Shown: positions 12,661 through 19,032 of the stretch, piece by piece
How the letters are laid out: every line of letters starts with the position of its first letter
Position numbering within the stretch: position 1 is the first letter of the stretch
From: Acinetobacter lactucae
GTDB taxonomy: Bacteria; Pseudomonadota; Gammaproteobacteria; Pseudomonadales; Moraxellaceae
Assembly (NCBI RefSeq): GCF_001605885.1
Contig: NZ_LRPE01000034.1
Span: forward strand, 62,001 to 126,000
Direction of reading: 5' to 3'
Length of the DNA: 64,000 nt
The notes under the pieces: model-generated
Database searches by the model: none
Seen by the model: the letters and a program-made list of their open reading frames with translations, nothing else
Told to the model about the DNA's origin: nothing
Translations under genes and position numbers: made by a program

Positions 12661-13524
12661 TTATGCCAGTTTCTTTTCTTCAATAAATTGAACATCTGCA
12701 ATTTGTGCATCCCAGAACTCATTCCATAAAGCACAGTAATCAATACATAGCTTGGTTAAGCTTTCATAATCATCTTTTGTAATCGCTTGCGCTAACGCAA
12801 ACCAAAGGTCATCTTGATGATCATCATCAGCAGCCTCAGATGTTTCATCCGTGGATACACCATGTACATGGTAATAACCCCCACCTTCAACATCAATATT
12901 TACGAATTTAGTCGCTTGACGTAATGGTGGACTGAAAAGAATGACTTCTTCTTCTGCAACAGCCAATAATGCTACGACGTTAATATAGCTATCATAAGAA
13001 GATTCTAAGAATGATCTCACCTGATCTGCAAATTTTGATGGTTTATAATTACGGCGGTCAAGCTCAGTTAAACCATAATCATTAAGTAAATCTTCATATA
13101 AAGGATAGTGAGCGTATTCAGGATTCCCCAAATAATAATTATCTTTATCGAGTCCAGGACGAAAACCAAACTCATCAAGTATATTTAAACTTAATAATAC
13201 CCTTGGATACATCTTAGCTCCAGAATGAAGTTTAGGTTCCAATTGTTTTGTTAGAAACTGGGCCTTTAATAGAGCATCAGTAAAAATCTGTACAATCGCA
13301 TGGCGATACTCTAAATGAATATGCTTCAAAGTCGTCTTATCCAGATATCCACTATTTAATAACTCAATTGCAGGATGCTTACAAACCGGTAATTCTGCAA
13401 TTTTTTTTCTTAACTGTTGAAGAAATTGTAAATTCTCATCCCATTGTTTTGCAGGGATACTATTTTTCATCCCCTGCAATGCTTTTTCTCTTGGATTATT
13501 AAAGTCTTCAAATTTTTTTAACAT
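12661..13524 (-). CDS. Heme-oxygenase-like protein, possible diiron oxidase/oxygenase (HDO-type)
   Basis: A 287-residue soluble, helix-rich protein. Helix signatures resemble the heme-oxygenase-like diiron enzymes (UndA, CADD, SznF group): an E-x2-H motif in HLEYRHAIVQ (Glu72, His75), an AVAEEEVI helix with Glu191-193, and a late acidic helix with D-x2-H (Asp233, His236) in ADDDHQDDLW. A His-rich turn YYHVHG (218-222) precedes it. In that family these residues bind two irons. The usual extra His four residues before the Asp is not obvious (Ser229), so the ligand set may differ. It is divergent from a TetR regulator and has its own terminator. Substrate unknown; assignment is by motif only. 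Confidence 0.6.
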   Translation of the reverse strand: MLKKFEDFNNPREKALQGMKNSIPAKQWDENLQFLQQLRKKIAELPVCKHPAIELLNSGYLDKTTLKHIHLEYRHAIVQIFTDALLKAQFLTKQLEPKLHSGAKMYPRVLLSLNILDEFGFRPGLDKDNYYLGNPEYAHYPLYEDLLNDYGLTELDRRNYKPSKFADQVRSFLESSYDSYINVVALLAVAEEEVILFSPPLRQATKFVNIDVEGGGYYHVHGVSTDETSEAADDDHQDDLWFALAQAITKDDYESLTKLCIDYCALWNEFWDAQIADVQFIEEKKLA

Positions 13525-13851
13525 AATGATTCTCAGTAGAAAGTTGTTCTTATAGTTAAGTTATAGGTTTTCCCTTTATTTCAATTATGCATTCAATTGC
13601 CAAAATAAATTCCGCTCACCTATGCTTAACAAGTTGATACTATGTTTATTATCTCAACAAATCAACGGATTAATTAATAATATTTAAAAAAGTAAATTAT
13701 TGCCAACCAAATACATAATATGTTGTTTTTTTAAATCAACCAAACTATTGAATAAATATAATTTTTTAAATACTATAAAATAAGTTTTATTTAAGCATCT
13801 ACACTTTACAATAGCAAAGTTAATCAAAAAATATTCACGACGGGAAAACCA
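13525..13851. promoter_or_regulatory. Divergent regulatory region between the heme-oxygenase-like and TetR genes
   Basis: About 327 AT-rich bases with no convincing ORF. It must hold both divergent promoters. The only compact palindrome I note is ACATA-A-TATGT at 13713-13723, which is short for a TetR operator. Assignment as operator is speculative. Confidence 0.3.
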
Positions 13852-14424
13852 ATGTCAAAAAGAGAAACTATTATAAGAACAGCAACAGCCCTCTTTAACC
13901 AAAAAAGCTATACCTCCATTGGAGTTGATCGAATTATTGCTGATTCTGGCGTTGCAAAAATGACTTTTTATAAATATTTTCCTTCAAAGGAAAATTTAAT
14001 TATGGAATGTTTGCAACATCGGAATATAAATATTCAAAATTCAATCAATGAACAATTAAATTTACATCAAGATGCCAACCCACTCGAAAAAATTCATATT
14101 ATTTTCAAGTGGTATGTGGACTGGATCAATAGCGAAACATTTAATGGATGTTTATTTAAAAAAGCATTTATTGAAGTATCTAAACAATATACTTCGATTC
14201 GTGAACCATTTTATGAATATACAAAATGGTTAACTAATTTATTGGATGAAAAGCTTACTCAATTAGGTATAGAAAATCCTACCCCTCTCATTCATATCAT
14301 TATTTCTATTATAGATGGTATGATTATTGATGGGACTACGGATAAAAATCTAATTAACCCAGAAAAAATCTGGAAATATATTGAGTTTTTAATTACAGAA
14401 GAGATTCCCGAGTACGTATCTTAA
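13852..14424 (+). CDS. TetR/AcrR-family transcriptional regulator
   Basis: A 190-residue regulator. The N-terminal domain (residues 3-55) is a clear TetR DNA-binding domain: ETIIRTATALFNQKSY, then GVDRIIADSGVAKMTFYKYF with the recognition helix, then SKENLIMECL. The C-terminal ligand domain resembles TetR_C proteins whose typical middle reads GCLFKKAFIEVS. It is divergent from the heme-oxygenase-like gene, which is its most likely target. AT-rich codon use is notable. Ligand unknown. Confidence 0.92.
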   Translation: MSKRETIIRTATALFNQKSYTSIGVDRIIADSGVAKMTFYKYFPSKENLIMECLQHRNINIQNSINEQLNLHQDANPLEKIHIIFKWYVDWINSETFNGCLFKKAFIEVSKQYTSIREPFYEYTKWLTNLLDEKLTQLGIENPTPLIHIIISIIDGMIIDGTTDKNLINPEKIWKYIEFLITEEIPEYVS

Positions 14425-16926: not shown

Positions 16927-18240
16927 GTGAATAAGATCAAAACATTAGTGTTAGCAATGAGTTCTTTAGGTGCAATGAGCGTAACAATACCTGTGCATGC
17001 CGCTACAGATGCTGAAGTTAATGCCTTACGAGATGAAGTAAAAGAGTTAAAGCAACTCATCCAGAAACTATCTGATCAACAAAAAACTGCTTTAACTGTC
17101 AGTGCTCCAGCAACAATTCCCGCAGCACCAGCGTCTCCTACGCCTCCAGCATCAAAACCAGGTTGGATGGCAATGGCAGATGGACAAACCCAAGTTAAGC
17201 TTTATGGGAATGTTCGAGTAGATGCAACCTACGACTTTAAAGGCTCAAATGGTAGTATTTCAAATGCAGCCAACTATCCTTTAAATAAAGATGACCCAAG
17301 ACAAGATTCACTAAATGTATCAGCTGCAACTTCACGGATTGGTCTAGATATTACTCGCCCAACTCAGTATGGAGATTTAACAGGTAAAATTGAAGCCGAT
17401 TTCATGGGTGGAAACGGCGATAATGGTAATGGTACCTTCCGTGTTCGCCACGCCTACATGTCATTAGGTAAATGGTTAGCAGGCCAAACAACTTCACCTT
17501 TTGTAAATACCGATACATCACCAGAAACACTAGACTTTACTGGTGCAGTCGGAACAGGAACCACTCGTACTGTACAAGTCCGATATACTCAACCAATCAA
17601 TGCACAGCAAAAAATATTAATTGCCCTAGAAGGTGGCGATGTTGAAAAAGTAAGTAATGCCGCAGGAGGCAGTCGCTTCCCTGCTCTAACTACACGCTAT
17701 GACTTTAAAACTACAGATAATAAAGGCTTATTACAGTTACATGGGCTTGCGCATGAAAATCGAGTGGCTCCAAAAGATAGCTCATCTGAAGAAAAATTTG
17801 GTTGGGGTGTAGGTGTTGGGGGCAAATATGATTTAACGCCTCAAGATAGTTTAGTAGCTAACTATTATCATGTTAAAGGAGATGGTCGATATTTATCGTA
17901 TAGCAATTCTGCTTATGCTTATGACACAACAACACAAGACATTAATTTAGGTGAATTTGATAGTGCAGTGATTGGGTATCAACGAAAATGGAGTCCTATT
18001 CTCCGCTCTACTTTTGCTATAGGAGGCATTCAATATAAAGATGATAGTGTCTATGCAAATAGCAATTTAACCAGCACCAGCTATAACAAAGAAATTTATA
18101 ATGCTTTGGTCAATTTAATTTGGAATCCAGTTAAAAATATTGATTTAGGTGCAGAATACACATATGGCCAGCGTGAAACTTTTGCAGGTGATAAGGGAGA
18201 CTATTCTCGTATCAATCTCTTAGCAAAATATAACTTCTAA
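16927..18240 (+). CDS. dcaP: DcaP-type trimeric outer-membrane porin
   Basis: A 437-residue outer-membrane protein. The GTG at 16927 with GGGGGAG upstream begins a signal peptide (NKIKTLVLAMSS, cleavage after VHA near residue 25). A short coiled coil follows (about 29-56, EVNALRDEVKELKQLIQKL), then an Ala/Pro-rich linker and a beta-barrel ending in Tyr-Asn-Phe, the usual C-terminal Phe. This layout is that of Acinetobacter DcaP-like porins, which take up small dicarboxylic acids. It converges on the glt importer and may supply acidic amino acids to it. Related DcaP paralogues occur in the genus, so the exact member is uncertain. Confidence 0.85.
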   Translation: MNKIKTLVLAMSSLGAMSVTIPVHAATDAEVNALRDEVKELKQLIQKLSDQQKTALTVSAPATIPAAPASPTPPASKPGWMAMADGQTQVKLYGNVRVDATYDFKGSNGSISNAANYPLNKDDPRQDSLNVSAATSRIGLDITRPTQYGDLTGKIEADFMGGNGDNGNGTFRVRHAYMSLGKWLAGQTTSPFVNTDTSPETLDFTGAVGTGTTRTVQVRYTQPINAQQKILIALEGGDVEKVSNAAGGSRFPALTTRYDFKTTDNKGLLQLHGLAHENRVAPKDSSSEEKFGWGVGVGGKYDLTPQDSLVANYYHVKGDGRYLSYSNSAYAYDTTTQDINLGEFDSAVIGYQRKWSPILRSTFAIGGIQYKDDSVYANSNLTSTSYNKEIYNALVNLIWNPVKNIDLGAEYTYGQRETFAGDKGDYSRINLLAKYNF

Positions 18241-18253
18241 GAATTAGATAAAA

Positions 18254-18280
18254 AAAAGAGCCTTTAAAGGCTCTTTTTTT
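18254..18280. terminator. Bidirectional terminator between dcaP and gltL
   Basis: The palindrome GAGCCTTTAAAGGCTC (18258-18273) is flanked by A-run and T-run, working for both convergent genes. Confidence 0.9.
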
Positions 18281-18288
18281 TAGAGGTA

Positions 18289-19032
18289 TTAATGCATCGC
18301 CTGAATTTTTTCTAAGAACAATTTAGCGCGTTCATGACGAGCTTCTAAATTATCAAAGAATTCATGCGTTGGGCAGTCTTCTAAAATTTTACCTTCATCC
18401 ATAAAAATTAATCGATTAGATACTCTTTTAGCAAAGCCCATTTCATGGGTAACACACATCATGGTCATGCCTTCATGTGCAAGTTGCACCATAACTTCAA
18501 GAACCTCACCCACCATCTCAGGATCAAGTGCAGAAGTTGGTTCATCAAACAACATACAGATTGGGTCCATAGACAAGCCACGCGCAATCGCTACACGTTG
18601 CTGCTGACCACCCGACAACTGACCCGGAAATTTATCTTTATGAGCAAGTAAACCTACACGCTCTAAATATTTCAAACCTTTTGCACGAGCATCTGCAACT
18701 GAACGCTTTAACACTTTAACTTGAGCAATCGTCAAATTTTCCAAAACAGTCATGTGTGGAAAAAGTTCAAAGTGCTGAAAGACCATTCCTACTCGGGAAC
18801 GGAATTTAGCAAGATCTGTTTTTGGATCTTTAAGCGAAATTCCGTCAACAATAATGTCACCTTGTTGAAATGGTTCTAAAGCATTTACTGTTTTAATGAG
18901 TGTTGATTTTCCTGAACCAGATGGTCCGCAAACAACAACGACATCACCTTTTTCAATACTCGTCGTGCAATCTGTTAAAACCTGAAAATCACCATACCAT
19001 TTAGAGATATGTTGGATGTCTATCATTGGCAT
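18289..19032 (-). CDS. gltL: Glutamate/aspartate ABC importer, ATP-binding protein
   Basis: A 247-residue cytoplasmic ATPase of a polar amino acid importer. Visible motifs: Walker A GPSGSGKST, Q-loop VFQHFELF, signature LSGGQQQRVAIARG, Walker B MLFDEP, and the H-loop in VTHEMGFA. The sequence DLAKFRSRVGMVFQHFELFP is very like E. coli GltL. GGAGA precedes the ATG. It is the last gene of gltIJKL, 13 bases after gltK. Confidence 0.93.
   Translation of the reverse strand: MPMIDIQHISKWYGDFQVLTDCTTSIEKGDVVVVCGPSGSGKSTLIKTVNALEPFQQGDIIVDGISLKDPKTDLAKFRSRVGMVFQHFELFPHMTVLENLTIAQVKVLKRSVADARAKGLKYLERVGLLAHKDKFPGQLSGGQQQRVAIARGLSMDPICMLFDEPTSALDPEMVGEVLEVMVQLAHEGMTMMCVTHEMGFAKRVSNRLIFMDEGKILEDCPTHEFFDNLEARHERAKLFLEKIQAMH

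Follow-up and report, generated by a model that had tools for sequence, protein, structure and literature searches.

A predicted dimetal HDO with a stretched third metal helix and a divergent TetR-family neighbour in Acinetobacter

Introduction

What kind of protein does a 287-codon gene of Acinetobacter lactucae encode, and does the TetR-family regulator transcribed away from it control its expression? The gene lies in the window that we analysed, a stretch of 64,000 nucleotides numbered here from its first base, and a first-pass annotation had proposed its product as a member of the heme-oxygenase-like dimetal oxidase (HDO) superfamily. According to an excerpt of a 2026 review, functional validation had by then reached about a dozen HDOs (PMC13108848). 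We favor, at a probability of roughly 0.65, a two-gene TetR-HDO module in which the regulator would control a single-gene, O2-dependent oxidase of a small molecule, perhaps a fatty-acid-like one.

Results

Two conserved genes share an upstream region

The HDO and TetR genes are transcribed divergently, with 327 bp between them.

12661..13524, minus strand: HDO gene, 287 aa (open reading frame, homologues, fold model and profile alignment)
13525..13851, no strand: 327-bp upstream region common to the HDO and TetR genes
13852..14424, plus strand: TetR-family regulator, 190 aa (PF00440, 43 bits)

Both open reading frames are genes and not chance frames, because they are conserved in other genomes. 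Counting the window's own genome each time, we found HDO homologues in 18 of 58 relatives searched, in 86 of 348 genomes from the same family as the window and in 2 of 398 genomes sampled across the phylum; a profile search recovered them in 3 of 369 genomes sampled across the class. The closest named matches to the enzyme, at 98% and 97%, came from A. pittii, records very near the window possibly having been left out. The window accordingly derives from a member of the calcoaceticus-baumannii complex near A. pittii. The window's own genome also carries a second copy of the enzyme (67% identical) and two further PF14518 proteins, of 470 aa and 250 aa. The longer of these has E143, H153 and H232, as in DtpC, and its 714-aa neighbour is taken for KatE; the shorter looks UndA-like when judged by eye.

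The HDO protein matched no NCBIfam family, models of defence systems gave no match, and searches of solved structures by sequence, with either the protein or a profile as query, returned no credible relative. We found no paper on the gene in the open-access literature searched, including with the terms Acinetobacter, 'iron-containing redox enzyme' and TetR in combination, and as far as these searches go the subfamily is uncharacterised.

The modelled fold is heme-oxygenase-like

An AlphaFold2 model of the window protein, built with 41 sequences, reached a pLDDT of 88.9 and a pTM of 0.88, and Foldseek ranked BesC and CADD first among its structural matches. Using VIA-align 2, we aligned the model with CADD over 210 residues (Z 22.4, rmsd 2.2), followed by HrmI (Z 22.1), UndA (20.1), PolF (19.8), BesC (19.5) and FlcD (18.8). 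CADD was also the top match when we modelled a relative of 32% identity (pLDDT 91.4). SznF was not among the 50 matches listed in either fold comparison, which is no evidence of a difference.

Against the Pfam family PF14518 (Haem_oxygenas_2), the window protein scored 20.3 bits, under the curated cut-off of 28.9, and its paralogue in the same genome scored 31.7 bits, over it; 31 of the 41 aligned sequences matched this family at E <= 0.01. A profile-profile comparison of the enzyme family with HDOs gave a probability of 97.2 (E 3.2e-11, 213 columns). Because of the fold, the profile match and the PF14518 matches among relatives, the HDO assignment is well supported, and the window protein is very probably a dimetal HDO. 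The first-pass annotation had suggested a heme-oxygenase-like fold and had named a different predicted fold as grounds for dropping the suggestion; the helical fold predicted by both models, like the profile match and the Pfam matches of relatives, bears it out.

Six predicted metal ligands are conserved

The usual HDO metal site consists of three His and three carboxylates contributed by three core helices, as described in an excerpt of PMC13108848. We built a reference alignment of 16 PF14518-type proteins (15 of 28 loci plus the DtpC-like protein), in which one Glu and the third-helix His, Asp and His were kept in all 16. Profile alignment placed six residues of the window protein on the six HDO ligand positions.

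13171..13173, minus strand: E118, predicted ligand on the first metal helix (41/41; aligns with the Glu kept in 16/16 HDOs)
13108..13110, minus strand: H139, predicted ligand (40/41; aligns with a His)
12952..12954, minus strand: E191, predicted ligand on the second metal helix (41/41; profile alignment)
12862..12864, minus strand: H221, predicted ligand, third-helix His (40/41, one gap; aligns with the His kept in 16/16 HDOs)
12826..12828, minus strand: D233, predicted ligand (40 Asp and 1 Glu of 41; profile alignment)
12817..12819, minus strand: H236, predicted ligand (40/41; profile alignment)

Of the 41 aligned sequences, 39 retain all six predicted ligands; the exceptions are L081, which has Glu for D233, and L074, from which several are lost. 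Profile alignment and conservation together suggest that the 3-His/3-carboxylate set is complete in the window protein, so that the 3-His/3-carboxylate (or 3-His/4-carboxylate) arrangement on three core helices appears to be present with unusual spacing. The predicted mapping rests on the broad profile, and narrower comparisons concur in part only: the subset with E-x9-H gave a probability of 96.7, single sequences and the DtpC-like subset gave 79.5 down to 0.6, and the comparison with one UndA-like sequence was weak and left E118 unpaired. Besides the ligand set, D83 (41/41) and D239 are invariant in the family alignment. D83 lies within a long helix of the model; a seventh carboxylate, on an auxiliary helix, is an SznF-type feature. 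The degenerate copy L074:6640-7461, 42% identical, lacks several ligands, including third-helix His residues, and is possibly a pseudoenzyme.

This ligand set differs in part from that of the first-pass annotation, which had read E-x2-H, a Glu-rich middle helix and D-x2-H as the metal motifs. The letters are all present, as E72-x2-H75, a Glu run at 190-192 and D233-x2-H236, and the latter two motifs stand, with E191 kept in 41/41 and D233 and H236 in 40/41 each. We rejected E72 and H75 as ligands: E72 is kept in 33/41 (Asn in 8/41) and H75 in 31/41 (another residue in 10/41), against 40-41/41 for the better candidates, and the pair falls outside the aligned HDO ligand positions. The third-helix His had also been described as replaced. 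H221 aligns with that very residue, displaced by an eight-residue insertion, and we rejected its loss given the profile alignment and the conservation of H221.

An insertion lengthens the predicted third metal helix

The usual third-helix motif, H-x3-D-x2-H, is stretched to H-x11-D-x2-H in the window protein, and the ligands of the first metal helix are likewise widely spaced.

12829..12861, minus strand: residues 222-232, the lengthened segment of the third metal helix (H221-to-D233 gap of 11 residues in 39/40 sequences and 9 in the remaining one; low pLDDT in two models)
13111..13170, minus strand: residues 119-138 between the first-helix ligands E118 and H139, containing a short modelled strand pair (length 16-20 residues across all 41 sequences)

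The contiguous H-x3-D-x2-H occurs in 23 of 28 PF14518 open reading frames and in 1 of 41 family sequences, there near the C-terminus and away from the metal site. Conversely, H-x11-D-x2-H matches 2 of the 28 (L116 and L128) as a pattern match only, and L128 has the usual motif as well. Judged from these alignments, the ligand motif is lengthened by insertion and not lost, and stretched helices are not without precedent, as DtpC-type proteins show.

Model confidence fell below a pLDDT of 50 at residues 222-233 of the window protein and at 218-226 of its 32%-identical relative. The sole internal low-confidence stretch in both models lies between the third-helix ligands, the extreme ends of the window protein being low too. 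An excerpt of PMC13108848 reports the third metal helix as unresolved or disordered in SznF and AetD when no metal is bound, and the low pLDDT at 222-233 is therefore no argument against an HDO. The stretched helix offers a test of the spacing that an HDO metal site can accommodate.

Could the stretched helix instead mean that the protein has the HDO fold with altered metal chemistry, either mononuclear or metal-free? The low confidence between the third-helix ligands fits this idea, as does the existence of a family member, L074, without several ligand residues, and the same review excerpt (PMC13108848) describes one HDO as mononuclear, with two ligands of the third helix lost. However, the retention of six ligands in 39/41 sequences is hard to explain without metal binding, and low confidence is expected of metal-free models; we regard altered chemistry as improbable. 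The first-pass annotation had reached a similar idea from a missing His, and that argument falls because its ligand reading (E-x2-H, His lost) is unsupported; what survives is the milder form, in which the third metal helix is stretched. A metal-free enzyme like TenA or PqqC is highly unlikely: TenA and PqqC structures match the model at Z 16-18 and 5 of the 41 sequences reach E <= 0.01 against PF03070, yet the HDO structures score higher, PF14518 is matched by most of the family and the HDO ligand set is conserved.

A divergent TetR accompanies the enzyme at most loci

We mapped 41 enzyme loci with their neighbours, and in 34 of them the gene immediately upstream of the enzyme is a divergent TetR, always from one sequence cluster; no other gene cluster is the next neighbour at as many loci. 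The divergent TetR claimed by the first-pass annotation is thus present in the window and widely, although the window copy is a hybrid gene (see below). Among the seven loci without an adjacent divergent TetR, L063 and L073 reach a contig edge and L074 is the degenerate enzyme copy; L083 has the cluster TetR on the opposite side of the enzyme, L084, a plasmid record, has a TetR annotated on the opposite side, L069 has only a 91-aa open reading frame at the TetR position, and L081 has the enzyme in a biosynthetic cluster instead of a TetR pair. At L081:8519-9346 and L179, a distant relative of the enzyme belongs to a PKS/NRPS-like cluster of the fatty-acid-initiated type, which also encodes a desaturase and a 2Fe-2S reductase. 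L067, counted among the 34, has a split enzyme gene with the TetR beside the first fragment only; the fragments of this b-type gene (L067:4584-4799 and 18179-18784) are about 13 kb apart. At L177, from another family of the class, a TetR lies nearby, downstream and on the same strand.

HDO and TetR distances were correlated over 27 loci (r 0.597; 0 of 2000 permutations as high), with six short-ORF loci and the window omitted (r 0.581 with the window), and species kinship alone can cause such a correlation.

Three elements of the regulator and the shared region are candidates for control.

14149..14151, plus strand: Cys100 of the TetR, candidate sensing residue (Cys in 34/34 distinct HDO-linked TetRs)
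13549..13560, no strand: CTTATAGTTAAG, close to the start of the HDO gene, putative promoter or operator (13549-13558 kept in 11/11 close relatives, all 12 bases in 9/11)
13803..13820, no strand: imperfect palindrome close to the start of the TetR gene, putative operator (identical in 7/11 close relatives)

Near the enzyme start, TAACTATAAG is kept in 11/11 close relatives. A near-perfect palindrome, ACAGACNNGTCTGT, stands out against 200 simple shuffles per region (p <= 0.005) in 7 of the 28 intergenic regions, lying between TetR and HDO at L076, L077, L078, L079, L090, L097 and L100, where the 'intergenic' stretches scanned for L078 and L079 contain some coding sequence; it is likely the operator of these divergent members. 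This ACAGAC palindrome was not found in the window's upstream region or in those of its close relatives. On balance, we think that the TetR probably represses the enzyme gene.

Several loci carry further genes. In 8 loci the TetR is followed on its far side by a gene for a protein with FAD- and NAD-binding domains, a candidate electron donor. In A. baumannii, L147 (NZ_CP104448.1) has a predicted aminoglycoside-resistance gene between the TetR and the enzyme gene. An integrase-like gene lies just downstream of the enzyme in L065 and in the plasmid copy L146:2256-3488. An excerpt of PMC11998280 describes an 'iron-containing redox enzyme' beside an MFS gene as an A. baumannii prophage hotspot, possibly the gene analysed here.

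The window's own TetR is a hybrid

Comparison with the a and b loci of A. pittii revealed a junction within the window's TetR gene.

13920..13989, plus strand: junction zone of a-type and b-type TetR sequence (comparison with the A. pittii a and b loci)

Similarity to the A. pittii a locus (L023) extends through the window as far as 13989, and similarity to the b locus (L064) sets in at 13920; the first part of its TetR is a-type and the remainder b-type, with the join in the DNA-binding region. We found no intact a-type TetR in the window's own assembly, where the best match is the hybrid, at 59%. The expected continuation of the a locus opens a different contig at its base 1, roughly 216 bases beyond where the TetR should end, and the contig that carries the paralogous enzyme gene breaks off 167 bases above it. 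In the relatives compared that have both loci on one contig (G007 and G008), the loci share the same orientation, and therefore one crossover would split the chromosome. The hybrid is either a rearrangement, by true recombination, or an assembly error. The genes to the right in the window, from an acyltransferase onward, were rejected as partners of the enzyme, as they belong to the paralogous b locus.

Discussion

The presence of a regulator and one enzyme without pathway genes suggests the sensing and oxidation of one compound. We propose that the TetR would occupy the shared upstream region and hold expression of the enzyme gene low until a small molecule or reactive compound, perhaps acting through Cys100, freed it. 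The enzyme would then take up two metals, Fe/Fe or Fe/Mn, over which the third helix would close, and would use O2 to oxidise one small substrate, our leading guess being a fatty-acid-like molecule. That guess is tentative, and a fatty-acyl-type substrate is weakly favored by the context of one locus at 34% identity, L081, where the enzyme gene lies ahead of a megasynthase whose domains include AMP-binding, ketosynthase, acyltransferase, aminotransferase and condensation; a 2Fe-2S reductase and a fatty acid desaturase come next. As most loci offer a single regulatory partner and no pathway genes, the search for the substrate is tractable, making the enzyme a promising, if not revolutionary, candidate for testing.

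Two other explanations bear on this proposed module. The adjoining TetR could be incidental, or the neighbourhood seen here an assembly artefact, as the hybrid TetR and an assembly broken near both parent loci might suggest; because 34/41 loci have an adjacent, divergent TetR from that same cluster, the pairing is independent of the window, and we consider this explanation improbable as well. The enzyme could also be a protective HDO like DtpC, which would hold down hydrogen peroxide or free iron under stress and act on no particular metabolite. The A. baumannii HDO DtpC limits peroxide while cells dry out, and its protection is lost on change of E143, H153 or H232 (excerpt of PMC13232832), the residues found in the 470-aa protein of the window's own genome. 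Overexpressed TetR-type regulators lower katE and heme oxygenase-like genes (excerpt of PMC9802203), and an A. pittii transcriptome table has an unplaced 'iron-containing redox enzyme' near trehalose-phosphatase (excerpt of PMC7296048). However, the responding heme oxygenase-like genes are unnamed in that excerpt of PMC9802203, the enzyme belongs to a different subfamily whose comparison with the DtpC-like subset is weak, and DtpC is co-transcribed with katE, whereas no catalase lies beside the enzyme gene. A DtpC-like role thus seems to us rather unlikely, and we retain the TetR-controlled oxidase as the preferred reading.

Comparison with known systems

CADD (CT610) of Chlamydia trachomatis is a self-sacrificing p-aminobenzoate synthase. 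It is the best fold match to the window protein and, according to an excerpt of PMC13108848, has a 3-His/3-carboxylate set; it is only 19% identical, and the window protein is longer, with its first and third metal helices stretched. UndA, a fatty acid decarboxylase, is also an HDO of similar fold, but it is 14% identical to the window protein and, as noted above, the profile comparison with an UndA-like sequence was weak. DtpC is an HDO of the same genus that likewise has E-H first-helix and His third-helix ligands, and DtpC-type proteins also have a small third-helix insertion, of three extra residues against eight in the window protein. The two differ in length (470 aa against 287 aa), subfamily and the adjoining catalase gene of DtpC; with a DtpC-like gene elsewhere in the same genome, we rejected the possibility that the enzyme is DtpC itself. 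The enzyme nevertheless bears on stress biology, since DtpC, a fellow HDO of the genus, limits peroxide during drying.

The regulator invites comparison with the TTTRs of phenotypic switching in A. baumannii, of which an excerpt of PMC9802203 counts 11 and a pseudogene. A complete A. baumannii record in the plasmid collection carries four TetRs of the HDO-linked kind, three of them near an enzyme copy and one of those three sites with a resistance gene between. The same record has a second TetR kind, ten intact and one shortened, with an eleventh intact copy at the same locus of another record; together these have a nearly identical recognition helix (L152, L154-L163 and L144:3317-3880). We take this second kind, picked by count and motif and not by name, for the TTTRs because the paper counts 11 plus a pseudogene. 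One second-kind TetR lies tail to tail with the HDO-linked TetR at this enzyme locus in A. baumannii. Identity of the window TetR with ABUW_3353, a guess from locus-tag arithmetic, was set aside, as the HTH signature argues against it.

A bolder idea is that TetR-HDO pairs are sister modules of the switch TetRs, in which O2 chemistry on a fatty-acid-like molecule would make or remove a ligand sensed by the pair's own TetR, and perhaps by the switch regulators, with the stretched helix gating the metal site until substrate is present; we hold this to be very doubtful. The HDO-linked TetRs and the presumed TTTRs have related DNA-binding domains, yet they form separate clades in a tree (support 100/100) and differ in recognition helix, MTFYKYF in the HDO-linked TetRs against an ATFYNYF-like signature in the presumed TTTRs. 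By clade and signature, and with the switch set itself inferred, we rejected the window TetR as a switch TTTR.
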